64,000 nucleotides of DNA from Micromonospora luteifusca (GTDB taxonomy: Bacteria > Actinomycetota > Actinomycetes > Mycobacteriales > Micromonosporaceae): the NCBI RefSeq assembly GCF_016907275.1, contig NZ_JAFBBP010000001.1, positions 4,826,001 through 4,890,000 on the forward strand, in the 5' to 3' direction. Made by a program: the position numbers and the translations under genes. Every line of letters starts with the position of its first letter. Within the stretch, counting starts at the first letter, position 1. The notes beneath the pieces were generated by a model, which did not search any database, had not been told where the DNA came from, and saw only the letters and a list, made by a program, of their open reading frames with translations. Positions 42,221 through 60,311 of the stretch are shown here, in pieces.

Positions 42221-43432
42221 GTGCTCGACGCCATCAGTCCCACCAGTTCAGTGGCCCCCGCGGCGCCGCCCCCGGCGAAGCGCCCCCGCCTCGCCGTCCT
42301 CGATGGCTTGCGCCTGGTCGCCGCCGTCTCGGTGGTGTTTTGCCACTACACGGCGTCCAATGACGCCTGGGACCAGAACGCCAAGCAGCTGTTTCCCTTC
42401 CTGCACCAGTTCTCCCAGTACGGGTGGCTGGGCGTCGAGGTGTTCTTCCTGATCAGCGGATTCGTCATCTGCATGTCCGCCTGGAACAAGTCGCTCGGTG
42501 ACTTCGTGGTGTCCCGGGTCGCCCGGCTCTACCCGGCGTACTGGATCGCCATCGTCCTGGCGGTGACGGTGATCAGCATCTGGCCGTCCGTGCGGTACGT
42601 CCGGTCCTGGACCGACGTCGCGGTGAACCTGACCATGCTGCAGGAGGGCCTCGGCGTCAGGAACGTCGACGGCGTCTACTGGACGCTCTTCATCGAGCTG
42701 AAGTTCTACCTGCTTTTCGCGATCGTGGTCGGCTTCGGCGTCACCTATCGGCGCTGCGTGCTGTTCTGCGGCCTGTGGACGGTCGCTTCGCTCGCGGCCA
42801 CGGTGGCGGGCGGTGACCTGCTCGTCATGTGGGCCGAGCCGCTCTACTCTCCCTACTTCATAGCGGGAATCGCCCTCTACCTGATCTACCGCTTCGGGCC
42901 GACCGCGGTGCCGTTCGGCATTCTCGGGCTCTCGTTCATCCTGGCGGAATTGACCGTGACCCGTCGGGTCGCGCGGTTGACGTTCGACACGACGAACGAG
43001 CACCACCCCATCGCCACGTGGCCGGCGCAGGCCGTCGTCGCCGTGGCGTTCTGCTTCATGACGCTGCTCGCCCTCGGCGCCTTCAACCGCATCCAGTGGC
43101 GCTGGCTGACCACGGCCGGCGCGCTCACCTATCCGCTCTACCTGCTCCACCAAGACATCGGGTTGACGGTGCTGCACGCGCTGCGCGACGACGTGCCGCC
43201 CTATGTCCTGGTGTTCGGCACCCTGCTCGCCATGCTGCTGCTCGCCTGGCTGGTGCACCGGTTGGGGGAGCGGCCGTTGGCCCGGCTGGTGGAGCGCGTC
43301 ATGCGCAACGGTATGGCGGATCTTCGCCGCCACTCCGCCGATCCGCCGCCCCGGCGCGACCGCGTGTCGGTGCCGCCGGTCGCTCTCCCGCAACCGGAGC
43401 CGGTCGGCGCCGGATCCAGCCTGCGGCCCTGA
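42221..43432 (+). CDS. Acyltransferase 3 (OafA/YrhL family)
   Basis: This 403-residue protein has about ten transmembrane helices. The opening L-D-G-L-R-L-V-A-A-V-S-V-V-F-C-H-Y holds the conserved His, and the F-F-L-I-S-G-F-V-I motif and the R-x-x-R-L-Y-P-A-Y segment are typical. The family transfers acetyl or other acyl groups onto surface sugars. GTG 42221 is chosen for the family N-terminus; ATG 42179 would add 14 residues. It ends in a strong hairpin with the PIG-L gene facing it. A role in decorating the Stealth-made polymer is plausible by location. Confidence 0.9.
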   Translation: MLDAISPTSSVAPAAPPPAKRPRLAVLDGLRLVAAVSVVFCHYTASNDAWDQNAKQLFPFLHQFSQYGWLGVEVFFLISGFVICMSAWNKSLGDFVVSRVARLYPAYWIAIVLAVTVISIWPSVRYVRSWTDVAVNLTMLQEGLGVRNVDGVYWTLFIELKFYLLFAIVVGFGVTYRRCVLFCGLWTVASLAATVAGGDLLVMWAEPLYSPYFIAGIALYLIYRFGPTAVPFGILGLSFILAELTVTRRVARLTFDTTNEHHPIATWPAQAVVAVAFCFMTLLALGAFNRIQWRWLTTAGALTYPLYLLHQDIGLTVLHALRDDVPPYVLVFGTLLAMLLLAWLVHRLGERPLARLVERVMRNGMADLRRHSADPPPRRDRVSVPPVALPQPEPVGAGSSLRP

Positions 43433-43435
43433 GCA

Positions 43436-43471
43436 GCCGGCGCCCGGGCCGACAGTGGTCCGGGCGCCGGC
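43436..43471. terminator. Bidirectional terminator between acyltransferase and PIG-L genes
   Basis: GCCGGCGCCCGG and CCGGGCGCCGGC make a perfect 12-bp stem that continues with a G-U pair and two G-C pairs. It lies between two convergent stops. Confidence 0.85.
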
Positions 43472-43479
43472 CGTTCCGG

Positions 43480-45531
43480 TCAGGCGGTGACCCACTCCTG
43501 CGGGGTGAGTACACCCTTGGCCACCGAGAGGCGGATCGAGCGGAGCCGCCCGTCGGCGCCGACCACCGCCACGGTGGGCAGCCCTGTCGCGTCCGTCTCG
43601 ATCGCCGGTGTACGCAGCACGGGGCTGCCGCCCAGATCGACCCATCGAGTGTGGAAGGCGTCGCCGGACGCGGGCTGCAGGCATACGCTGATCCGCCCGG
43701 CATCGTTGCGCTGCGCGATCACCACGCCCTGGTCGTCGTTGAGCACCATGGCGGCCAGTAGTCCGATGCCGCCGTCCCCGCCGAGGAAATGCGCCGTCGG
43801 ATCCCAGCGGCCGCCCGGCCTCTCCTGGCGGTACGCCACGACCCACGCGGTGTTCGGCTGCCGGACCAGCAACAACAGTCGGCCGTCCGGCAGCTCGACC
43901 ACGGTCGGCGGCCCGGCGGGCGCCGGCAACAGCGTGTTGTACGCGGGTTTGATGGCGCCCTCGGCGTTCTGCTGACTCCATCGCACGATGCCCGGCTGGA
44001 CGCCGTCTCCGACGGAGCCGCCGTAGAGCTCGATGGTCCCGCGACCGGTCCGGATCGCGTGGTAACCGTCCTGGGATCGGCCACCGTGGTCCAGCCAGGG
44101 ACCCCAGGTGCCGTCGAGCTCGCGGACCCGGGCGCTCATCCCGGAACCGAAATTGCGGACGAAGAAGCGAAGCCGGCCCTTACCGTCCACGACCGCCGCC
44201 GGTGAACCGATCTCGCGGCGCTTGATCGGATTGGGGCCCGAGCCGTTGTACGGGTTACCGAGGTTCTCCCAGTCGGCGAACTCGCCCTGCCGGTCCGTCT
44301 CGCTGGCCAGCACGACGTCACGGAGGTGGCCGTAGATGTTCGCGGAGAAGGTCGCCCGAATCCCGAAGGCGTGCAGTCTGCCGTCGGTGTCTCGGACCAC
44401 CTCCAGCAGCGGGAGAAACGCCTCCTGGTCAGCTCCGGCGGAGCCGCCGAACGATTCCGGACCGGTCCAGGTCCCGGAGCCGGCGGCCGATTCGAGCCAG
44501 CGGACCGGGCGCCCGTCGAGCACGCCGAATGCGGCCAGCCGGCCGTCGCGCATGCGGCGCAGCCAACTGGTCGAACCGTGGTACCGGTAGGTGGTGCTCT
44601 GACCGTAGCCGCGGTTGTACGAACGGTTGCCCAGCTGCCGGTCCCCGCACAGCAGGGGCTGGTCGCACGTGTGGCCGTCCTCACCGCCGTAGATGCTCAG
44701 GTACTTCACCTTTTCGGCGAACGCCGCGCCGCTGAGGTTGAAAGGCCAAAGCTTGTTCCAGTAACCGCGGTAGCTCTCGGTCGTCACCCGCTGGGGATGG
44801 CCGGCCACGTCGTAGCGCCGCAACGCTTCCATGGCGAACAACGCGGCGGCCGTGTGGTCCTCGTTGTCGCAGTAGTGCGTCGGCCCGTCGCCGTACTTGG
44901 TGTGATCGGGATCAGGGTCCATCACCCGGACCACGCTCGGCTGGTTCGCCTCGAGCAGGTCGACCAGCGTGGTGAGCAGTCCTTCCCGGGTGAAGCGATA
45001 GGAACCACTCGCGGCCGGAATGGGGCTGTCGGTCGGCCGCAGGGTCTCCTGTGCCTCGGAGTCGCCGGTCCACAACGTCCGCAGGCGAACCCGCGCGTCC
45101 CCCGGACCCATGCGCAGATTGAGAAAGATCAAAGTGACCGGCGCGCAGCCCTCCTCAAGGGTGTTCACCTCGGCGACCACGCCGTCGCGGACATCGAGCG
45201 TGGTGCGCTTCCAGACCGCGTCCCGGCGACCGGTGACGATCGCGGAATAGGCAGCTCGCAGGCCACTCTGCCGGCCCGTCGTGTAGCCCTCGAAATCCTG
45301 CGGGTAGTCCAGCCGGTTGCGGTCCGAGGTCGGCACGTTGCGGCCGTCCGCCTCGCCGGCCGTGAGATAGACGCAGACCACCGCGGTGCCGGACCGAAGC
45401 GTTTGCAGCAGGTCGGGGACCATGAAATACAGGTCATCGTCGGTGTGGGCGAGGATCTGCAGGTGGGTCAGCTGGCGCGCGGGACTCACCGGAAGTTCGC
45501 CCTTTTTCGATGCGCCTCGAAACAGCCTCAT
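43480..45531 (-). CDS. PIG-L deacetylase fused to a beta-propeller
   Basis: This 683-residue protein starts with a PIG-L fold: the zinc-binding A-H-T-D-D-D motif (His29, Asp31, Asp32), and a later N-E-D-H-T-A-A-A segment with the second His. From about residue 305 a repetitive propeller follows with blades such as D-G-R-L-A-A-F-G-V-L-D and G-R-L-R-F-F-V-R-N. PIG-L enzymes remove N-acetyl groups from GlcNAc in small molecules or polymers. The propeller may bind a sugar polymer. GGGGAG lies 5 nt before ATG 45531. Its last blade resembles the small propeller protein at 55376, linking the two loci. Confidence 0.88.
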   Translation of the reverse strand: MRLFRGASKKGELPVSPARQLTHLQILAHTDDDLYFMVPDLLQTLRSGTAVVCVYLTAGEADGRNVPTSDRNRLDYPQDFEGYTTGRQSGLRAAYSAIVTGRRDAVWKRTTLDVRDGVVAEVNTLEEGCAPVTLIFLNLRMGPGDARVRLRTLWTGDSEAQETLRPTDSPIPAASGSYRFTREGLLTTLVDLLEANQPSVVRVMDPDPDHTKYGDGPTHYCDNEDHTAAALFAMEALRRYDVAGHPQRVTTESYRGYWNKLWPFNLSGAAFAEKVKYLSIYGGEDGHTCDQPLLCGDRQLGNRSYNRGYGQSTTYRYHGSTSWLRRMRDGRLAAFGVLDGRPVRWLESAAGSGTWTGPESFGGSAGADQEAFLPLLEVVRDTDGRLHAFGIRATFSANIYGHLRDVVLASETDRQGEFADWENLGNPYNGSGPNPIKRREIGSPAAVVDGKGRLRFFVRNFGSGMSARVRELDGTWGPWLDHGGRSQDGYHAIRTGRGTIELYGGSVGDGVQPGIVRWSQQNAEGAIKPAYNTLLPAPAGPPTVVELPDGRLLLLVRQPNTAWVVAYRQERPGGRWDPTAHFLGGDGGIGLLAAMVLNDDQGVVIAQRNDAGRISVCLQPASGDAFHTRWVDLGGSPVLRTPAIETDATGLPTVAVVGADGRLRSIRLSVAKGVLTPQEWVTA

Positions 45532-50315: not shown

Positions 50316-51236
50316 TCAGAATCGGGCGAACGAGCGGATCGGGGCGCGCGGACCATATTTCGGCGCCCGGATGCCGGCGGCCCCCAGCAGCAGGCACACC
50401 CGGCCCCGGTGACCCCGGAACGGCTCCAGCAGGGCCAGCATCCGGGCGTCGTCGCCCCTCGGCTCGCCTGCGAGCGCCCAGGCCACCGTGTTCGGGACGT
50501 GATAGTCGCCGACGCTGACCGCGTCCGCGTCGCCGTACGCGACCCGGACCACCTCGGCGGCCGTCCACGGCCCGATACCGGGGATGGCGGTCAGCCGGCG
50601 GGTGGCATCGGCGGCGTCGGCGCTGCGCTCCAACCGGTCGGCGAGCGCTGCGGCACGACGCAGTGTGTCGGCGCGACGCTGTTCGACCCCGAACGGATGG
50701 AACACCCAGTACGGGGTGGCGGCCACCGCGGCGGCCGCGGGCGGCAGCAGCAGCGGCTGCAACGGGCCGGGTGCCGGCTCCCGGAAATGCCGCACGGTCG
50801 CCGCGTACGCCCGGTACGCCTCCTTCACGGTGACCTTCTGCTCGAAGACCGCCCGCAGCAGGTGCGGGAAGACCTGCCCGGTGGCGGGCATCCGGAGCCC
50901 CCGGTGCTCCCGGGCCAGCCGGGCGACCAGCGGGTGGGCCCCGGCCAACTCGGTGAAGCCGGCCAGGTCGTCGCGCAGCCCGGCGATCGCGTCAGCGCGC
51001 GCCAGGACGTGCTCGGCGCCCGGCCCATAGCCCTCCGCGAGCAACTCACCGCCGACGGGTCGCAGCGCGAGGGTGGCCGGCCCGTCCGGGGTGCGGGTGG
51101 CCCACCAGAAGGCGCCCGCGACGACGCGCGCGCACGGGTCGTACGGGCTGAAGGTGAGCGCACGGACGGAAGCCGCCAGCCGGTAGCCGACCGGCGGGTG
51201 CAACACCCTGGTCGCGGCGGGTTCGGTGTCGGTCAC
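50316..51236 (-). CDS. AlkA-like DNA-3-methyladenine glycosylase
   Basis: This 306-residue base-excision repair protein has an N-terminal AlkA-type beta domain and a HhH-GPD domain with L-T-A-I-P-G-I-G-P-W-T-A-A-E (the hairpin), followed by D-A-D-A-V-S-V-G-D-Y, where the catalytic Asp lies (G-D-Y). It removes alkylated bases. GTG 51236 is chosen; it has only a weak ribosome-binding site. A TTGCCAGG...CCTGGCAA hairpin (51246-51273) precedes its start. Confidence 0.9.
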   Translation of the reverse strand: MTDTEPAATRVLHPPVGYRLAASVRALTFSPYDPCARVVAGAFWWATRTPDGPATLALRPVGGELLAEGYGPGAEHVLARADAIAGLRDDLAGFTELAGAHPLVARLAREHRGLRMPATGQVFPHLLRAVFEQKVTVKEAYRAYAATVRHFREPAPGPLQPLLLPPAAAAVAATPYWVFHPFGVEQRRADTLRRAAALADRLERSADAADATRRLTAIPGIGPWTAAEVVRVAYGDADAVSVGDYHVPNTVAWALAGEPRGDDARMLALLEPFRGHRGRVCLLLGAAGIRAPKYGPRAPIRSFARF

Positions 51237-51656: not shown

Positions 51657-53474
51657 ATGATCGCCCTGAAGGTCTACCGACTTCTGCCGCCGCAGGTGCG
51701 GCGGCGCCTGCTCGGTGTGCTGCCAGCCCACCGGCGGATCGGCCTGGTGCAGACGCTCTCCCGGCCGCGCGGCGGCGACACCGTGCATCCCCTGGGCGCC
51801 CGGGTGACCGTGTCCGACGGCGGCGTCCGAATCAAGGCCGAGGTGGTCGCCACAGCTACGCCGTTGGAACAGTGGCACCGCAACCTCACCGCCGTCACCA
51901 CCGCGCTGCACGCTGCCGGCATCGACTACCACTGCATCCGTAACGATGACCACCTGCGCAGCACTGTCGCAGTCCTCGACGACCATCGGCCGGCGGTGCA
52001 ACACCTCATCCGCTCCGCGCCGGAGTTGTCGGGAGCCAACGTCCGGGTGGTGCAGGTCCAACCCGGTCGGGACCAGCCGGACGCCACCCCGACCGAGGTG
52101 TTCCAAGTCTGCTTCCCGGTCACCGACGCCCGAGCCGGTGTGGTCCTCGGCGCCCAGTTCGCCTGCGAGATCGAGTTCTGGAGCCGGCGCGGGGACATGG
52201 TCCGCGCGCCCCGACGCAACGGTGTCGTCGACGAGGCGCCCGCCCGGGCACAACCGGTCCGGGTGGCCGCGGCCTTGATGAGTCACTTCGTGCCCGAGGC
52301 CGACGACCACACCTACGGCACCCGCCGCGATCTGTCCGTCCGGGCGCCGGACCGCGTTGGCTTCCCGATCGACGCCGTCTACACCTGGGTGGACGGCTCC
52401 GACCCGCAGTGGCAGAAGCGGAAGTCGATGGCACTCGGTGCCCCCGACGGCCCGCTGCACGCGGTGGCAGCGAACTCCTCGCGCTACCACAACCGCGACG
52501 AGCTGCGGTATTCGATGCGGTCGCTGCACAGCTTCGCGCCCTGGCTGAGGCGGATTTTTCTGATCACCGACAGTCAGTTGCCGAGCTGGCTCGACCCGAG
52601 CCATCCCAGGATCACGCTCATCTCACACGCGGAACTCTTCGCCGACCTCGGCGGCCGGTCCTCGTACAACTCGCACGCCATCGAGTCCCGGCTGCACCGC
52701 ATCGACGGTCTGGCCGAACACTTCCTCTACCTCAACGACGACGTGTTCCTCGGGCGTCCACTGCTGCCGAACCACTTCTTCCACGCCAACGGGATCGCGA
52801 AGTTCTTCCCCTCACCGGCGCAGTTCGGCCTGGGCGAGGCGAATCCTGAGGACCCGCCGGTGAAAGCCGCCGGAAAGAACAACCGTCGACACATCCAGCG
52901 GCAGTTCGGCGTGACCATCACGCAGAAGATGAAACACACCCCGTTCGCGCTGCGACGCAGCATCATGCAGCAGATCGAGGGCAGGCTGCCGGAGGAGGTG
53001 ATGGCCACCGCCCGGCACCGGTTCCGTCACCACGGCGACCTGTCCATCCCGTCGTCGCTGCACCAGTACTGGGCGTTCCTGACCGCGCAGGCCGTCCCCG
53101 GCGACATCGAGTACGAGTACGCCGACCTGGGCCACCCCTCGACCCCCGCCCGACTGGCCGAGCTGCTGGCCCGCCGGCACCGCGACGTCTTCTGCCTCAA
53201 CGACACCGACTCCGACCCGCGGTCGTTCGAGGAGCAGGAAAAGATGTTGGCCGACTTCCTGCCGCGCTACCTGCCCTTCCCCGCCCCGTTCGAGCTGCCC
53301 GACGACGTGGTGGCGGAGCGGCGGTCCGTGGGTGCCGGTGAGCTGTGGCGGCGGTCGTACCGCTCGGTGGTGGATGCCCGTCAAGGCACCCCGATCGACG
53401 CGCCCACCATGCCCAACACCATGCTAAGCACGGCCACCGACTTCAGGGGCTTTGCGCCGAGGATGGATGGCTGA
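51657..53474 (+). CDS. Stealth-family sugar-phosphate transferase 1
   Basis: This 605-residue protein has a basic N-terminus, a Stealth-associated N-terminal domain (about 75-225) shared with the two other Stealth genes here, and the four conserved Stealth regions. CR1 is VYTWVDGSDPQW (about 240-252). CR2 runs from N-R-D-E-L-R-Y-S through S-Y-N-S-H-A-I-E to Y-L-N-D-D-V-F. CR3 has K-N-N-R-R-H-I, and CR4 D-V-F-C-L-N-D. Stealth proteins transfer hexose-1-phosphate to make phosphodiester-linked capsule or cell-wall polymers. ATG 51657 is preferred; GTG 51636 is possible. Confidence 0.9.
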   Translation: MIALKVYRLLPPQVRRRLLGVLPAHRRIGLVQTLSRPRGGDTVHPLGARVTVSDGGVRIKAEVVATATPLEQWHRNLTAVTTALHAAGIDYHCIRNDDHLRSTVAVLDDHRPAVQHLIRSAPELSGANVRVVQVQPGRDQPDATPTEVFQVCFPVTDARAGVVLGAQFACEIEFWSRRGDMVRAPRRNGVVDEAPARAQPVRVAAALMSHFVPEADDHTYGTRRDLSVRAPDRVGFPIDAVYTWVDGSDPQWQKRKSMALGAPDGPLHAVAANSSRYHNRDELRYSMRSLHSFAPWLRRIFLITDSQLPSWLDPSHPRITLISHAELFADLGGRSSYNSHAIESRLHRIDGLAEHFLYLNDDVFLGRPLLPNHFFHANGIAKFFPSPAQFGLGEANPEDPPVKAAGKNNRRHIQRQFGVTITQKMKHTPFALRRSIMQQIEGRLPEEVMATARHRFRHHGDLSIPSSLHQYWAFLTAQAVPGDIEYEYADLGHPSTPARLAELLARRHRDVFCLNDTDSDPRSFEEQEKMLADFLPRYLPFPAPFELPDDVVAERRSVGAGELWRRSYRSVVDARQGTPIDAPTMPNTMLSTATDFRGFAPRMDG

Positions 53475-53518
53475 CCCACCGCATCGTCCCTGCCCGCGTT
53501 TTTCGGCCATCGTCTGTA

Positions 53519-55303
53519 GTGGAGCCCAGCTTGGTACGCCCCGCACCTCAACCGCCATCGTCGGAGCCGCCGCGGGCGCTCGCCGAGCCGTCGGGGCTTG
53601 TCGACGTCTACCGTCGGGTGCTGAGCGCACAGACCCGTCGTGCGATCGCGACGAAGGTGAGTCCGCGGGCACGCCACCAACTCAAACAGTGGGTCGCACG
53701 GGCATCCCGAGACGCCCTGGTGGCGGGGCGCCGGGGCGAGCGGTTGGCCCGACGGCAGCCGGAACTGCTCGCCGGTGGTGACCGGGCGGTCGTGACAGCG
53801 GACCGGGCGTCGCGAATTGCCCTCGTCGACCCGGCAGCCACGCCGCTGCGGGCCCGGGCGGCGAACCTGACCGCCGTGACGGCAGCGCTCGACGAGGCTG
53901 GCATCGAGTACTTCCAGGTCCGCGGTCGGTCACCTCGTGCGTCCGTGGTCGCCGTCGACGTCGCCGACCGCAGCCGTGCGCACGCCGCGCTCGCGGCTGC
54001 TTGCGCCCGAGTTCCCGGCTACGTCTCCATACCTCGGCAGCACGGTGAGCGGCCCCCGGCCGCGGGCTTCGAGCCACGGACGTGGGATCGGGTCGCCGAC
54101 GCTCCGGTGCTACGACTGACCTGGTACTTGACGGATCCGCGGCACCGTCTGGTGCTGGGGCCGGCGTACGGCTGTGACGTCGAGTTCTGGACCCGGCAGG
54201 AGGACGTCCTCGTCGCCCCTCGCCGTAACCCGGTGGCGGAGCAGGTCCAGGTGTCGTCGCCTCCGGTCCTCGTACCCGAGTCGCTGTTCACCGGCCTGGT
54301 GCCGCCCACCGACAGCACGACCGTTCGAAGCCGGCCGGAGTTCGCCGGCCGGTCCCCGGACGACGTGGCCTTCCCCATCGACGTCGTCTACACCTGGGTG
54401 GACGGCACAGATCCGGACTGGCTACGTCGACGCGCCGCCGTGACCGGAATTCCCTACCACGCCGAGGCGGCGAGTCCGGCTCGGTTCCTCAGCCGCGACG
54501 AGCTGCGCTACTCACTGCGGTCGGTGCATCTGTTCGCGCCGTGGGTGCGGCACATCTACCTGGTGACCGACGACCAGGTGCCGAGTTGGTTGGACCCGTC
54601 GGCGCCGGGAATCCGCGTGGTCAGCCACCGGGAGATCTTCACGGACCCATCGGTGCTGCCCACCTACAACTCGCACGCGATCGAGAGCCAGCTGCATCAC
54701 ATCGACGGGCTCTCCGAGCACTTTCTGTACTTCAACGACGACGTCTTCCTCGGCACCGAGGTGCTTCCCCAGGATTTCTTCCTGGCCAACGGCATCTCCC
54801 GCTTCTTCCCGTCGCCGGCGCTCGTGCCTCCGGGCGCGCCGAGCGCTGAGGACATCCCGTCGTCGGCCGCTGGGAAGAACAATCGGGCACTGCTCGCCGA
54901 GCGCTTCGGCACAGTGCTCAACAAGAAGATGAAGCACATGCCGCACGCGCTGCGGCGCAGCGTCCTGTACGAGATCGAGCAGGAGTTCTCGGCACCGCAT
55001 CGTGGGACCGCCGCGAGCCGGTTCCGCGGCATGACCGACATTTCGGTCGCCTCGTCGCTGCACCACTACTACGCGTTCCACACGGGCCGGGCCGCGCCGG
55101 GCGAGCTGGAATACACCATCGCCGAGTTGTCCCACCCCGACACTCCCGCGCGGCTCGCGCACCTGCTGGCCCACCGGGACCGGCACGTCTTCTGCCTGAA
55201 CGACGCCTTCTCCTCCGAGGCGGACCTGACCGCCCAGCTCGCGGTCCTCACACCCTTTCTGGACACCTACTTCCCGGTGCCCAGCCCGTGGGAGAAGGCC
55301 TGA
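53519..55303 (+). CDS. Stealth-family sugar-phosphate transferase 2
   Basis: This 594-residue paralogue has an N-terminal domain (about 100-250), CR1 VYTWVDGTDPDW (about residue 290), CR2 with R-D-E-L-R-Y-S-L-R and Y-N-S-H-A-I-E-S, F-N-D-D-V-F-L-G, CR3 K-N-N-R-A-L-L, and CR4 H-V-F-C-L-N-D. The upstream frame to 53345 is a shadow of gene 1, so GTG 53519 is used; no good ribosome-binding site precedes it. It follows gene 1 by 44 bp. It probably makes a second linkage in the same polymer. Confidence 0.88.
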   Translation: MEPSLVRPAPQPPSSEPPRALAEPSGLVDVYRRVLSAQTRRAIATKVSPRARHQLKQWVARASRDALVAGRRGERLARRQPELLAGGDRAVVTADRASRIALVDPAATPLRARAANLTAVTAALDEAGIEYFQVRGRSPRASVVAVDVADRSRAHAALAAACARVPGYVSIPRQHGERPPAAGFEPRTWDRVADAPVLRLTWYLTDPRHRLVLGPAYGCDVEFWTRQEDVLVAPRRNPVAEQVQVSSPPVLVPESLFTGLVPPTDSTTVRSRPEFAGRSPDDVAFPIDVVYTWVDGTDPDWLRRRAAVTGIPYHAEAASPARFLSRDELRYSLRSVHLFAPWVRHIYLVTDDQVPSWLDPSAPGIRVVSHREIFTDPSVLPTYNSHAIESQLHHIDGLSEHFLYFNDDVFLGTEVLPQDFFLANGISRFFPSPALVPPGAPSAEDIPSSAAGKNNRALLAERFGTVLNKKMKHMPHALRRSVLYEIEQEFSAPHRGTAASRFRGMTDISVASSLHHYYAFHTGRAAPGELEYTIAELSHPDTPARLAHLLAHRDRHVFCLNDAFSSEADLTAQLAVLTPFLDTYFPVPSPWEKA

Positions 55304-55375
55304 CATGGTTGCCGCCCTCGTTGCACGCCATCGCGCGGCGACCCGTCGTCGCTATCCCAGACCGGGGGTAACGCC

Positions 55376-55690
55376 ATGTTCTGGTTGAGACAGGGCGTCG
55401 GCCGGGCCGCCTCCGCGCCGGCGCACCAAGCCGCGGCCTACCTCCGCGACGGCACCGGCACGACCAGCCTGTCCTGGCAGCCGGCGGGGCGTGGGGTGTC
55501 CACGACGTGGTCCACCTCCGGTGTCCCCTTCGTCGGTTCCCCGGCCGTGGCGGTGGACGCCAGCGGACGAGTCGTGGCCGCGGTCGTCGGGGTGGATGGA
55601 CGACCGCGGGCGTCCCGGCAGCGACGGGCGGGCAGTGATGGACAGTTCGGCGACTGGACGGCCATCGGGAACAGGCGGGGACAGGCATGA
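55376..55690 (+). CDS. Single-blade propeller-like small protein
   Basis: This 104-residue protein has one clear blade-like segment, G-S-P-A-V-A-V-D-A-S-G-R-V-V-A-A-V-V-G-V-D-G-R, close in pattern to the last blade of the PIG-L/propeller gene at 43480 (T-P-A-I-E-T-D-A-T-G-L-P-T-V-A-V-V-G-A-D-G-R). It has no signal peptide. It is either a remnant of a larger propeller or a small accessory protein. Its stop overlaps the next start (ATGA), so it is translated within the operon. Confidence 0.6.
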   Translation: MFWLRQGVGRAASAPAHQAAAYLRDGTGTTSLSWQPAGRGVSTTWSTSGVPFVGSPAVAVDASGRVVAAVVGVDGRPRASRQRRAGSDGQFGDWTAIGNRRGQA

Positions 55691-56736
55691 GCGGAGCTGG
55701 CATGAACGGGGCGCATCTGCGCGAGCTGGCGTCCGACGCGCTGCGGCGCTGGCCCCGGCTGCGGGTCGCCCTGCGCCGGGCCGACCGGCAACTGGTTCGG
55801 CAGGTGGCGCAGCTGAAGGGCACGATGCGGGCACCGGCTCCCCGGCGGATCTTTCGGGCCGCCCTGCCGGCCGGACCGTCGATCCAGGCCCGCTTCGTGG
55901 GCGTGCTCGACGGGCACACCCTCAACCTGGACCTCGAGGTGCCGCCCGCGCTCGCCGCCGACGTCGTCGGTGCCGAGCTGCACCTCGTCCACGGCAGTAC
56001 GCGGCTCACCGTGCCCGCTGACCTGCGTCACGCTGGCGACGGTCTGGCCGTCTCCGCCGCCGTCCTGCTCTGCGCTCGGCCGGGCGGCCTGGACCTGCCC
56101 CCGGGTGGCTCGTGGCGGGTGGAGTGCTGCCTGATCAGCGAAACGGGTGGGGGAGACCCCGTCCGGGTGGTCGGAGGCGCGACCGAACGAGCTGCCGGCC
56201 CCACCGTGTCGGCCCCGCCCTGTCCCGACTCGGGATACCGGTACCGGCCGGTGACCGACCAAGCCGGCCGGCTCGCGCTCGCCGTCACGGCTCCCGGAGC
56301 GTTGGCCGAACTCACCGACGTCCGACTGGACTGGACCGGGGCGAGCCTTCAGGTGCGGACGGTCGGTTGGCAGGCCGACGGGCCGGTGGAGGTGGGGCTG
56401 GAGTCGCGCGGTGGCGGCGAGTCTCTCCGCGTCCAAGGTGAACTGGTCGGCCCCGACCTGCTGCGGTTCAGCCTGCCGCTGTCGGCGATGACGGAGGCCG
56501 GGCACGTTCGGGAGCGGATCTTCGACGTCCGGCTGTACGCCGAGTCCCGCCGGCTGCGTGTCGGCATGGTGCTGCACGACCTCGCCAACCCCAAGAAGTC
56601 CCTGCGGCCGCCGGCGGCGATCGTCTGGGCCGCGCCCGGCCGGTCGGTCCGCGTACGCCCCTACTTCACCCCGGCAGGCAGTCTCGCCCTGGCCTGCCTG
56701 CCCATTCAATCCCGCTCGACGGACGGCAACTCATGA
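55687..56736 (+). CDS. Unrecognised beta-rich protein in Stealth operon
   Basis: This 349-residue soluble protein begins with a basic helical segment (A-S-D-A-L-R-R-W-P-R-L-R) and continues with many beta-strand-like stretches in two repeats (about 55-190 and 195-345). No catalytic motif stands out. It is coupled on both sides by ATGA overlaps to the propeller-like gene and the GT4-Stealth fusion, so it is very likely to act in the same polymer pathway, perhaps as a polymer-binding or scaffolding module. Confidence 0.75.
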   Translation: MSGAGMNGAHLRELASDALRRWPRLRVALRRADRQLVRQVAQLKGTMRAPAPRRIFRAALPAGPSIQARFVGVLDGHTLNLDLEVPPALAADVVGAELHLVHGSTRLTVPADLRHAGDGLAVSAAVLLCARPGGLDLPPGGSWRVECCLISETGGGDPVRVVGGATERAAGPTVSAPPCPDSGYRYRPVTDQAGRLALAVTAPGALAELTDVRLDWTGASLQVRTVGWQADGPVEVGLESRGGGESLRVQGELVGPDLLRFSLPLSAMTEAGHVRERIFDVRLYAESRRLRVGMVLHDLANPKKSLRPPAAIVWAAPGRSVRVRPYFTPAGSLALACLPIQSRSTDGNS

Positions 56737-59576
56737 AGATCACCTATCTGCTCACCTGGGCCGATGCCATCGGTGGCACCGAACGCACCGTCCTGCGGCA
56801 GGCGAACTGGCTGGCGAGTCGGCACGAGGTGGAGATCATCGGCGTCCTCCGCACCCGCGACGAGGTGCCCTTCGAGGTGGATCCCGCCGTTCGGCTGGTG
56901 CACCTTCTCGACACCCGTGACGGCGTGATCCGGCCAGTGCGGGGCGGGATGCCCGATGCCGTCGCCGAGACGCTCGCCGCCGCGCCCAGCACGCTGGTGC
57001 AGCGACACTGGGAGGGCGCGTTCTCGGCGCTGTCCGACCTCGAACTCGAACGCGTGCTCGGCGAGACCGACGCCGACGTGGTGGTCACCACCACCCCCGC
57101 GTTGCTCGCCGTCGCCGCGAAGCTGTTGCCCCGACGCGTGGTGATCGTCGCGCAGGAGCACCGTGTCGCCGAGCTGCGGGGTTCCTCCGGTGAGCCGTTC
57201 GGGCTCTTCGCCGCCCGGGCCGACGCGATCGCGCTGCTCTCCCGACCGACCCGGGACTGGTTCGCCGACCTGCTGGCGGACGCCGCTCCCCGGCTGGTCG
57301 TGCTGCCCAACCCGATCGAGGAGGGCTACCGGCCGCGATCGACCCGGGAGACCCGCACCGTGGTCATGGCGGGTCGGTTGAGCCCCGAGAAGCAGTTCGA
57401 GCACGCGATCGCCGCCTTCGCCCAGATCGCTCCGGACCATCCCGACTGGCGGCTGCGTATCTTCGGCGGCGGGTCACGGTCGCGCTTGGAGGAGCGGATC
57501 GCCGGCCTCAAGCTCGGCAATCAGGTTCAACTGCTCGGCCCCACCGAGAGCATCGAGGACGAGTGGGCCAAGGCGTCGGTGGCGATGGTGACGTCCCGCG
57601 TGGAGTCGTTCGGTCTCACCCTGATCGAGGCGATGAGCGCTGCGGTGCCGGTGGTGGCGTACGACTGCCCCAACGGCCCCCGCGAGGTCGTCGAGGACGG
57701 TAAAACCGGCTTCCTGGTCGCCCCGGACAACATCGACGAACTAGCCGTCGCACTGCGCAAGCTCATCGAGGACGATGGCCTGCGGCACGCGATGGGGCAC
57801 GCGGCCCTGCGCGATGTGGAGCGGTTCTCGGTCGAGCGGGTGATGCCGCAGTGGGAGCAGCTCTTCACCGACCTGCTGGCCGACCGTGGCAGTCCTGGAT
57901 GGACGGAACGTCGATTCGACGCGGTTGCGGCCAACCAGGCCCGCAGGGCGGCACCCAACGTGGTGCCGAGCAGGGCCGCCGCCCGCAGCGTGGGCACGGT
58001 CGATGTCGAGGCATGGGCGGCTGGAGTCGAGGCCGGACGCGAGGACCTGATCTGGACTCGGGGGCAGTTGACCCGCCTGCGGGACTCCACGCCGTACGAG
58101 GTCGCACGGGACAACCTCGACCTGACGGTGGAGAGTCTCGACACCGCGGGCATCGACTACTTCCTCGTCCGACAGATGTCGCCGACCTTCCGGGTGGCCG
58201 TTCGAGAGGAGGCCCGACAGTCCGTCGTGGCCGCCCTCGCCCGCCGGTACGCCGATCGCCCGGTCTACGTGGAGGCCTTTGACCAGCGCAACCGCACGAT
58301 GGGGGTCTGGCCGGCCGCAGCGACACCAGGGGTCACCGCGATGGCCACAGCCTCGTGGCTGCGCGTGTTCGAACCCGCGATGACCCTGTCGCAGACGCTG
58401 CGGATGGGCACCATCTACGGGTGTGCCGTGGAGTTCTGGCACACCGCCGAGGACGGAACGGACCTCTGCGGCCCATCGCGGACCCTGGTGGGAGACCGGT
58501 TGGCAGCCGAATCCCTCACCCCTGCCGTGGTGACCGTGGGCAGGCAGAGTTACCGATCCGTCGACCCGTTCACGCGGCGGCTCGCTGACGAGATCACCTT
58601 CCCCATCGATCTCGTCTACACCTGGGTGGACGGAGCGGACCCGGCCTGGGCGCGCCGTCGGGCGCAGACTCTGGGGATCGGGTACTCCGAGCAGGATTCG
58701 CTGCAGGGCGCCGCACGTTTCCGCAGCCGGGACGAGCTGCGGTATTCGCTGAGGTCGGTCGACCTCTTCGCACCGTGGGCGAACAGGATCTGGATCGTCA
58801 CCGACGATCAGGTGCCGGAGTGGCTCGACACCACACATCCCAAGGTCCAGATCGTCGACCACCGGGAGATCTTCACCGACCCTGGGGTTCTGCCGACGTA
58901 CAACTCCCATGCCATCGAAACTCAGCTGCACCACATCGAGGGGTTGTCCGAGCACTTCGTCTATCTCAACGACGACGTCTTCTTTGGTCGTCTGTTCGGC
59001 CCCGACATGTTCTTCAACCCGGGTGGGCTGCCCAAGTCGTTCCGTAGTCCCACGCAGATCCCGCTCACGCTCCCCAACCCTGACGACGAGGCGTTCGCGG
59101 TGGCCGGCAAGAACAATCGGCGGCTGCTGGAGGAGGCCTTCGGCAAGACGCTGATCCACGCGTTCCTGCACGCTCCGCACGCACATCGACGCAGCACCCT
59201 CTACGAGGTCGAGGCGGCGTTCCCGGAGGCGGTCCGACGGACGGCGGCCAACCGGCTCCGGTCGACCGACGACGTGTCCATGCTCTCGTCCCTCGCGCAC
59301 CACTTCGGGCTGATGAGCGGACGGACGACGGCGGGTTCGGTCCGTTGCACCTTTGCCAACGTCGGCCTGGCCGCTCACCTGCCGCGGCTGGACAGCCTGC
59401 TGGCGAGCCGGGCGTTCGACGTGTTCTGCCTGAACGACTACCACGACGGCGACGTGCCGGCGGAGGATCAGGCGAAGGTCCTCGAGGCGTTCCTCGGTGC
59501 CTACTTCCCCATCGCCAGCCAGTTCGAACGGGGGAGTGAGCGCAACCTCCGGCTGTCCACCGCCGCGTGGCGGTGA
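56733..59576 (+). CDS. GT4 glycosyltransferase fused to Stealth transferase
   Basis: This 947-residue two-enzyme fusion has residues 1-390 as a GT-B fold retaining glycosyltransferase (GT4): W-A-D-A-I-G-G-T-E-R near the start, M-A-G-R-L-S-P-E-K, and the EX7E motif ESFGLTLIE (Glu291, Glu299). Residues about 440-620 are the Stealth-associated N-terminal domain, followed by CR1 VYTWVDGADPAW (about 628), CR2 with R-D-E-L-R-Y-S-L-R and L-N-D-D-V-F-F, CR3 K-N-N-R-R-L-L, and CR4 D-V-F-C-L-N-D. It probably adds a sugar and then a sugar phosphate to the growing polymer. ATG 56733 overlaps the previous stop (ATGA). Confidence 0.93.
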   Translation: MKITYLLTWADAIGGTERTVLRQANWLASRHEVEIIGVLRTRDEVPFEVDPAVRLVHLLDTRDGVIRPVRGGMPDAVAETLAAAPSTLVQRHWEGAFSALSDLELERVLGETDADVVVTTTPALLAVAAKLLPRRVVIVAQEHRVAELRGSSGEPFGLFAARADAIALLSRPTRDWFADLLADAAPRLVVLPNPIEEGYRPRSTRETRTVVMAGRLSPEKQFEHAIAAFAQIAPDHPDWRLRIFGGGSRSRLEERIAGLKLGNQVQLLGPTESIEDEWAKASVAMVTSRVESFGLTLIEAMSAAVPVVAYDCPNGPREVVEDGKTGFLVAPDNIDELAVALRKLIEDDGLRHAMGHAALRDVERFSVERVMPQWEQLFTDLLADRGSPGWTERRFDAVAANQARRAAPNVVPSRAAARSVGTVDVEAWAAGVEAGREDLIWTRGQLTRLRDSTPYEVARDNLDLTVESLDTAGIDYFLVRQMSPTFRVAVREEARQSVVAALARRYADRPVYVEAFDQRNRTMGVWPAAATPGVTAMATASWLRVFEPAMTLSQTLRMGTIYGCAVEFWHTAEDGTDLCGPSRTLVGDRLAAESLTPAVVTVGRQSYRSVDPFTRRLADEITFPIDLVYTWVDGADPAWARRRAQTLGIGYSEQDSLQGAARFRSRDELRYSLRSVDLFAPWANRIWIVTDDQVPEWLDTTHPKVQIVDHREIFTDPGVLPTYNSHAIETQLHHIEGLSEHFVYLNDDVFFGRLFGPDMFFNPGGLPKSFRSPTQIPLTLPNPDDEAFAVAGKNNRRLLEEAFGKTLIHAFLHAPHAHRRSTLYEVEAAFPEAVRRTAANRLRSTDDVSMLSSLAHHFGLMSGRTTAGSVRCTFANVGLAAHLPRLDSLLASRAFDVFCLNDYHDGDVPAEDQAKVLEAFLGAYFPIASQFERGSERNLRLSTAAWR

Positions 59577-59663: not shown

Positions 59664-60311
59664 TCAGTACGAGTAGCCCGCGCCTCCGGCGTCGGTCGAG
59701 CCGCTGTTCGCCGGCGGCGCGACCGCCTTCGGCGTGGAGGTGGGCAGGCAGCTCAGGTTCTTCTTGCCGTCCGGCTGAACCACGAACCAGGTGCCACCAA
59801 CAGCCTGGCCCTTCCACTGGCCGGGCTTCTTGTCGCCGATGTAGCGGTACACCGGCCAGCCGGCGATGGTGAGCTGACGGGTGCCGTCCTGGCGGGTCAC
59901 GCTGCTGACCTTGTCGTCGGAGACACCGGTGAGCTGCGGGTTGCCGTCGGTCAGCGCCGGCGGCCACACCTCCGCGCACTTGTCGACACAGTTCGACGAC
60001 GGCGGGTCGGCGGTGTCCTTGTCGAAGCGGTACAGGATCCAGCCGTCCTGGTCGGTGACCACCTTGCCCATCCGGGCGACGCTCTTGCCGTTCAACTGCT
60101 CGGTCAGGTCGACGTTCGCGGGCGGCGCGTCGGCGGCCGGCGCCTCCGCGGACGCCGACGCCTCGGGTTCAGCCGTCGCGGTGGGCTCGGCCGCGGCGAC
60201 GGCGACCGGCTCGGCCGCGCTCGAGTTCGCCCCGTCGTAACCCGCGGGAGCGCAGGCCGTTAGTGCGACCATCGCGCTCGCGACGATGACGGTCCGCTTC
60301 ATCTGTGCCAC
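59664..60311 (-). CDS. Lipoprotein with Yx(FWY)xxD-type repeats (Lipoprotein_15-like)
   Basis: This 215-residue lipoprotein has a lipobox (A-L-T-A-C, Cys20), an Ala/Glu/Pro-rich linker, and a domain with two repeats that each contain a Y-R-F/Y-x-x-D motif (W-I-L-Y-R-F-D-K-D and W-P-V-Y-R-Y-I-G-D). These belong to the predicted-lipoprotein repeat family (COG4315), sometimes found with redox proteins. A Cys pair (N-C-V-D-K-C) may bind heme or form a disulfide. GTG 60311 fits the AGGAGG spacing better than ATG 60302. Confidence 0.85.
   Translation of the reverse strand: MAQMKRTVIVASAMVALTACAPAGYDGANSSAAEPVAVAAAEPTATAEPEASASAEAPAADAPPANVDLTEQLNGKSVARMGKVVTDQDGWILYRFDKDTADPPSSNCVDKCAEVWPPALTDGNPQLTGVSDDKVSSVTRQDGTRQLTIAGWPVYRYIGDKKPGQWKGQAVGGTWFVVQPDGKKNLSCLPTSTPKAVAPPANSGSTDAGGAGYSY

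Follow-up and report, generated by a model that had tools for sequence, protein, structure and literature searches.

A locus of Micromonospora luteifusca places three Stealth family proteins side by side, the last of them fused to a GT4 glycosyltransferase, and thereby raises the question of what such a set of enzymes makes and whether each Stealth protein contributes a phosphodiester of its own. Meningococcal capsule enzymes are Stealth hexose-1-phosphate transferases. A preliminary description of the 64,000-nucleotide stretch that was analyzed (here, the window; positions count from its first letter) had read the locus as one for a surface polymer and had suggested more than one phosphodiester linkage per repeating unit.

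Gene content and catalytic residues of the locus

The genes of the locus and the neighbors to which we refer are the following.

42221..43432, plus strand: acyltransferase 3 family protein, 403 aa (PF01757), adjoining the PIG-L gene
43480..45489, minus strand: PIG-L family deacetylase with a C-terminal repeat domain, 669 aa (PF02585 over the cut-off)
50316..51236, minus strand: alkA, left border gene (DNA-glycosylase-like reading), a fixed flank
51657..53474, plus strand: S1, Stealth protein, 605 aa, adjoining alkA (Pfam CR1-4 over the cut-off); the constant gene of the locus
53519..55303, plus strand: S2, Stealth protein, 594 aa, GTG start (Pfam CR1-4); common to types A1, B, and C (see below)
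55376..55690, plus strand: 104-aa ORF, deletion scar of a PIG-L gene (protein matching and blastn against genome G112)
55687..56736, plus strand: beta, 349 aa, two Ig-like sandwiches; predicted fold like accessory domains of teichoic-acid enzymes
56733..59576, plus strand: GT4-Stealth fusion, 947 aa (Pfam GT4 domains and Stealth CR1-CR4)
56733..57917, plus strand: GT4 half of the fusion, residues 1-395 (PF00534, E = 2e-39; PF13692; PF13439)
57918..59576, plus strand: Stealth half of the fusion, residues 396-947; NTase-like domain (about residues 446-620), then the catalytic module
59664..60311, minus strand: secreted lipoprotein (PF03640), right border gene, a fixed flank

All five ORFs between 51657 and 59576 lie on the plus strand, and the coordinates and lengths of the three Stealth proteins (605, 594, and 947 aa) proved correct on checking. 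Each of these proteins contains the motifs VYTWVDG, YNSHAIE, and VFCLND once and matches the Pfam Stealth CR1-CR4 models over their cut-offs (CR2, E = 2e-41 to 7e-46), and the three are the sole Stealth_CR2 matches of the 7.16-Mb single-contig genome. The ATGA overlaps reported for the accessory genes are present between the small ORF and beta (55687-55690) and between beta and the fusion (56733-56736); S2 and the small ORF are separated by a gap of 72 nt. NCBIfam gave no match for S1, S2, the 104-aa ORF, or beta, and Pfam gave none for alkA at E ≤ 0.01.

The window Stealths match CpsY of M. tuberculosis (PDB code 8J2N) and GNPTAB, from which they differ in the GT4 fusion, in the presence of three paralogues in one locus, and perhaps in their N-terminal NTase-like domain, which lacks a conserved acid pair. 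Mutation of CpsY is reported to have shown that E305, N322, D324, and R419 matter (PMC10668966). The equivalents are E343, N360, D362, and R457 in S1 and E389, N406, D408, and R503 in S2; these residues are identical in S1, S2, and the fusion, and their columns are invariant in a 42-row alignment that includes all three. The preliminary description had held that loss of the family's catalytic residues would speak against it; since none of the three proteins has lost the glutamate, the NDD triad, or the arginine, this objection falls away. Judged by these residues and motifs, S1, S2, and the fusion are intact Stealth family proteins, for which sugar-1-phosphate transfer is predicted. Their N-terminal domain (residues 51-225 of the module) has a predicted fold like that of FKRP, an enzyme of the nucleotidyltransferase fold. 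The missing acid pair in the aligned sequences weakens the case for an active NTase; residues 1-200 of CpsY were omitted for crystallization (PMC10668966). The GT4 half of the fusion has GT4-type domains and keeps the pair E291/E299, which we take to be the EX7E motif of GT4 enzymes.

The 104-aa ORF had been described as a single-blade propeller protein, a reading ruled out by comparison with G112, a genome of the same genus, where the slot after S2 is filled by a gene for a PIG-L deacetylase with a C-terminal repeat domain (L059, 12179-14074; incomplete at the end of the contig, with 632 aa or more). The N-terminus of the ORF (about 22 to 24 aa) is the N-terminus of this PIG-L protein, and the remainder is a PIG-L C-terminal part, with 33 residues at 85% identity followed by a match to L004 at 1-137, a stretch that there sits just before beta. 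In blastn, the window DNA is colinear with L059 up to 12240 and then jumps to 13958. The ORF is thus a deletion scar, left where a PIG-L deacetylase gene lost about 1.7 kb of its interior in frame. Of the protein, the first ~24 and last ~80 residues remain, nearly the whole catalytic domain being gone; the ORF gave no PIG-L match in Pfam at E ≤ 1.

Overlooked by the preliminary description, as were the neighboring acyltransferase gene and the fixed but variable site treated below, an apparently full-length PIG-L gene (43480-45489) lies about 6 kb upstream of the locus. It is a relative, at an ectopic place, of the gene whose scar lies at 55376; a PDB sequence search with its product gave no match at E ≤ 0.1. 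PIG-L domains also act on small molecules. Of the 160 genomes of the genus, 14 have a gene of this kind (E ≤ 1e-40), namely, 13 of the 39 Stealth-positive and 1 of the 121 Stealth-negative ones (Fisher P = 2e-8, kinship ignored). By its coordinates, the gene lies within the Stealth locus or on its margin in 12 of these genomes, the exceptions being the window's genome and G069. The acyltransferase next to the window PIG-L gene has a 52% identical counterpart within the Stealth locus of Streptomyces noursei (L018), and the pair was not called at that place in the gene maps of G112, G074, and G005. This pair (42221-45489) looks like an insertion, which perhaps compensates for the deleted in-locus PIG-L gene.

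A fixed site and its cassette types in Micromonospora

Among the 160 genomes of the genus, alkA was found in 158 (E ≤ 1e-60) and the lipoprotein gene in 137 (E ≤ 1e-40). Stealth_CR2 was matched in 39 (38 over the cut-off), with three matches per genome common among the positives; there was no Stealth match in the other 121, so the polymer should be dispensable for the genus. The length of the site was counted in 124 genomes, in which both border genes were among the matches listed and lay on one contig; the alkA positions of G003 and G139 in this count come from their extracted regions. The gap from alkA to the lipoprotein gene measures 6.0 to 10.7 kb in 31 of 33 Stealth-positive genomes and 76 to 463 bp in 89 of 91 Stealth-negative ones (site filled versus empty, Fisher P = 2e-24). 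The locus occupies one fixed chromosomal site, filled or empty by genome. Six Stealth-positive genomes fall outside this count. By gene map, G040 and G112 carry the locus at the site, G068 carries it beside alkA with no recognized lipoprotein gene, and G010 has a Stealth gene at another site; G061 and G154 are not among the mapped genomes, and the remaining unmapped positives are known by coordinates.

Twenty-four occupied loci (that of G112 spans two contigs) were gene-mapped with a caller script of our own, which missed beta in L049, L052, and L055, where it was found by search, did not call the single Stealth gene of G061 (L064), and shifted some starts. They fall into four types.

Type A1 (2 loci): S1, S2, PIG-L or its scar, beta, fusion (gene maps)
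Type A2 (9 loci): Stealth, beta, fusion; 8 with a convergent S1, 6 with a 684- to 688-aa membrane protein
Type B (9 loci): S1, Stealth, GT4/beta, S2; 6 with PIG-L (gene maps)
Type C (4 loci): S1, GT2/TagF, S2 (gene maps)

The membrane protein of type A2 is DUF6541 in the one locus tested by Pfam (L050). The type C protein between S1 and S2 is a GT2 (GT-A)-TagF fusion, identified by PF00535 and PF04464 in L063 and by blast in the other three.

Four genomes depart from the rule of site length: G094, G051, G062, and G107. The Stealth-negative G094 has at the same site (L069, 3260-9313) a 1,170-aa GT2-TagF protein with a weak TarS_linker match between its domains, along with a CDP-alcohol phosphatidyltransferase-like (CDP-OH_P_transf) and a phosphatase-like (Exo_endo_phos) gene; this content is a fifth cassette type. 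An ORF of G051 (L070, 2798-4033) joins part of a GT4 protein to a Stealth C-terminus and appears to be what a deletion left of a type B locus. G107 has a weak Stealth match alone, and G062 (L078, 8769-12867), like G010 (L077, 9200-13300), carries at a second site an A2-like Stealth gene beside a relative (by blast) of the DUF6541 membrane protein.

The flank proteins of 28 genomes gave a tree whose well-supported branches call for no fewer than 5 changes in type A2, 5 in type B, and 3 in type C. The tree as drawn takes 6, 6, and 4 changes, against shuffled means of 7.8, 7.9, and 3.8, and 44, 48, and 500 of 500 shuffles, respectively, came as low. The types are thus hardly more clustered than by chance, which points to repeated exchange or to gain and loss. 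Four cassette types alternate at one site, scattered over the flank tree, and the rows nearest to the window, G074 and G005 (also its two best alkA matches among those listed), have an empty site. The site, which holds other polymer genes or nothing in related species, is like the swappable capsule loci of pathogens. Bacillus subtilis wall teichoic acid cassettes, whole or partial, are likewise reported to be swapped by recombination (PMC8753576); the Micromonospora case differs in its enzymes, in the phylum, and in that an empty site is common (89 of the 91 Stealth-negative genomes).

The predicted polymer and its enzymes

We consider it likely that the locus is an exchangeable, serotype-like module for a phosphodiester-linked surface glycopolymer, in which the fusion acts as a two-domain polymerase and S1, probably with S2, performs shared steps; the polymer probably belongs among the poly(diglycosyl 1-phosphate)s. 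The gene content, catalytic residues, model folds, fixed site, cassette exchange, and scar are the data on which this proposal rests, and we infer the donors, linkages, and order of steps, as well as the roles of S1, S2, beta, PIG-L, exporter, and ligase. The earlier view, in which Stealth sugar-1-phosphate transferases and a fused sugar transferase form the basis of a surface glycopolymer locus, is thus upheld as to the enzymes, whose motifs and residues are kept, while the polymer is one that we infer.

The GT4 half of the fusion would add one sugar from a nucleotide sugar, probably in alpha linkage, as this half is of the retaining kind; the Stealth half would use a UDP-sugar to attach the following sugar as sugar-1-phosphate, with release of UMP, and the two halves would alternate along the chain. 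Beta, like the corresponding domains of TarS/TarK/TarL, may serve the polymerase as an accessory domain (scaffold or polymer-binding), here detached. S1, and probably S2, would carry out steps common to all of the polymer types, e.g., priming or joining of the chain to a shared carrier. The PIG-L enzyme would de-N-acetylate a sugar and would be encoded 6 kb away because the in-locus copy was deleted. Export and attachment to peptidoglycan would fall to an ABC-2 exporter (TagGH-like) and LCP proteins encoded elsewhere.

Several known systems offer points of comparison. TagF-like capsule polymerases of the GT-A/TagF and TagF/GT-B architectures (CslB, Cps1B, Cps12B, Cps3D, and Cps7D) likewise combine a glycosyltransferase and a phosphotransferase in one polypeptide and make alternating glycosidic and phosphodiester links, GT-A/TagF being reported as a two-linkage capsule polymerase architecture of Gram-negatives (PMC5974469); a GT-A/TagF protein occupies the same slot in related genomes. 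In the window fusion, the phosphotransferase is Stealth and not TagF, and the order is GT4 first and Stealth second. The fusion has no PF04464 (TagF-like) match in Pfam at E ≤ 1, so it resembles these polymerases in its predicted working without being a member of their family. Streptomyces coelicolor has a poly(diglycosyl 1-phosphate) and an LCP ligase, PdtA (PMC7831098 and PMC11481543); the Streptomyces versions of our locus carry an LCP gene. A Gal-GlcNAc-1-P repeat would be the expected product of a retaining galactosyltransferase and a GlcNAc-1-P transferase. The enzyme families are known, but a limited literature search (Stealth in actinomycetes and two-domain Stealth polymerases) recovered no description of the locus, of the GT4-Stealth architecture, of a detached TarS-type domain, or of the exchangeable Micromonospora site. 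We give even chances to the broader view that the GT4-Stealth fusion is a third self-sufficient polymerase architecture, next to GT-A/TagF and TagF/GT-B, and the alkA-lipoprotein site a Micromonospora serotype locus in which exchange of polymerase cassettes leaves the Stealth genes around them constant, perhaps under selection by phages or predators. The locus offers a concrete gene set for the phosphodiester-linked wall polymers of filamentous actinomycetes, and the site displays allelic variation in the style of capsule loci in a soil actinomycete genus. The replacement of GT4-Stealth by GT-A/TagF at one site could help to separate repeat-unit genes from shared-linker genes, and a two-domain Stealth polymerase, if the proposal is true, would be of use in the synthesis of defined sugar-phosphate polymers.

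Beta, unrecognized in the preliminary description, now has a candidate identity from its predicted fold (AF2 pTM, 0.60). Its model resembles the Ig-like domain of TarK/TarS/TarL/RmlT, the good match being the C-terminal domain, with Foldseek TM-scores to TarS and TarK of about 0.3 of the query; we regard it as a candidate relative in structure of the Ig-like accessory domain of these teichoic-acid enzymes. From these it differs in being a separate protein without a catalytic domain and in having a Stealth fusion as its partner. It is homologous to the domain fused to GT4 in type B loci. Searches for full-length relatives of the fusion by exact 8-mer seeds, which give a lower bound, recovered at least 23 named loci (21 of Streptomyces, one of Spirilliplanes, and one of Micromonospora, with L026 and L028-L030 excluded as matching the GT4 half alone); the nearest named relative is that of Micromonospora sp. 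ALFpr18c, at 90% identity to the fusion. Beta adjoins the fusion in 22 of these 23 loci by tblastn with the window beta and in the 23rd, L020, by blastp with a Streptomyces beta. Elsewhere in the family, other genera have seven full-length betas; each precedes, by about 2 kb, the CR2 of a Stealth encoded in a long frame (962 to 1,263 codons), and by coordinates six of them have a Stealth gene on either side. Across the phylum sample of 396 genomes, beta was matched in 5 and Stealth_CR2 in 14 (our own included), of which only the window's genome has three.

Within the sequence covered, gene calls in the 21 Streptomyces loci recovered LCP and propeller genes in 20 loci each, an S2-like Stealth gene in 19, and PIG-L in 15, with Pfam confirmation for L010 only; L005 is the locus without LCP, propeller, S2-like Stealth, and PIG-L. 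The Streptomyces "propeller" protein is named after its match to one Photorhabdus chain (8q82_A; E = 4.6e-6) and the preliminary description. The S. noursei locus (L018, 3-15487) has two GT4-Stealth fusions together with acyltransferase, PIG-L, beta, LCP, and propeller genes. In Streptomyces sp. sk2.1 (L022, 10001-13172), the GT4 and Stealth parts appear as two separate ORFs in the gene calls, and the sequence is longer by about 300 bases, which may reflect a natural split, an insertion, or an assembly error.

The window locus itself has no LCP, exporter, or nucleotide-sugar gene, and the pathway is therefore incomplete as it stands. The seven LCP genes of the genome all lie outside the window, and since their products are 27 to 38% identical to three LCPs of the Streptomyces loci, no partner can be named. 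Two ABC-2 permease/ATPase pairs lie beside TagF-like genes (L113, 3991-9747, at 3.73 Mb; L114, 6948-12019, at 5.26 Mb). These TagF-like genes comprise one GT2-TagF fusion and one partial TagF match with an IspD-SDR protein, and by their gene content L113 and L114 appear to be separate teichoic-acid-like loci of the same genome.

The missing LCP gene bears on another reading, in which the product is a secreted exopolysaccharide or a glycan of the sporulation matrix, or glycans are decorated, and no wall-anchored polymer is made. The gsf cluster of Actinoplanes missouriensis, which may act in this way in sporangia, includes a Stealth family protein, and its deletion is reported to give smaller sporangia and immature spores (PMC13390465), but 20 of the 21 Streptomyces loci with this fusion also have an LCP gene, and the modeled fold of beta resembles wall teichoic acid enzymes, and so we consider this reading unlikely.

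Constant and variable Stealth genes

A tree of 79 Stealth cores, built by a quick method and including 8 of the 21 Streptomyces loci, has clades of fusions (20 rows), S1 (23 rows), S2 (15 rows), A2 Stealths (11 rows, taking in both second-site copies), and type B Stealths (9 rows). Rows of the S1 clade come from all four cassette types, and those of the S2 clade come from types A1, B, and C. S1 is present in 23 of the 24 mapped loci (L055 is without it, and that of L061 is diverged, at 63% identity) and S2 in all 15 loci of types A1, B, and C, while 8 of the 9 type A2 loci combine S1 with a middle Stealth of a clade other than S2. The identity of S1 to that of the window tracks the identity of alkA (Spearman 0.69, n = 22; P = 3e-4, indicative as the rows are related). 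Being kept whatever the polymerase, S1 should serve a shared step, and on this distribution we find it more likely that S1 and S2 would perform shared steps beside three different polymerase architectures, including the TagF type. Transition transferases, which join variable capsules to a constant glycolipid, offer an analogy, the known ones belonging to TagF-like and LicD families in the account that we cite (PMC11666461); S1 might be an enzyme of this kind. The type B Stealth (SxB) lies outside the fusion clade, so it would be too simple to regard the split and fused forms as rearrangements of a single enzyme.

These distributions count against the conclusion drawn earlier from the three paralogues, that the repeating unit has more than one phosphodiester. 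Were each of the three Stealths to add a different sugar-1-phosphate, there would be two or three such linkages per repeat, and the three do keep their catalytic residues and do belong to different clades. However, S1 constant beside different polymerases means that three Stealths need not imply extra phosphodiesters, and the idea of one linkage per Stealth is weakened by the TagF-type polymerase in the same slot, by the non-S2 partners of S1 in type A2, and by the tracking of S1 with a flank gene; we rate it as quite improbable. It is very improbable that the fusion (phospho-)glycosylates protein or small-molecule substrates or serves as an effector of a conflict system, for although the GT4 half matches the GT4-conflict model PF20706 (E = 3e-11) and the Stealth relative GNPTAB, a GlcNAc-1-phosphotransferase, acts on lysosomal enzymes (PMC11418123), general GT4 models match far more strongly (E = 2e-39), TagF-type polymerases swap into the same slot, and no immunity-like or secretion partner was recognized in the gene maps, where many genes are without a Pfam search.

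The affinities of the window's own Stealth genes are mixed. Its S1 has its nearest neighbor in a genome of type B (99% over 311 columns), and its S2 and fusion are nearest to those of the A1 locus of G112; by these affinities, the window locus is a mosaic.
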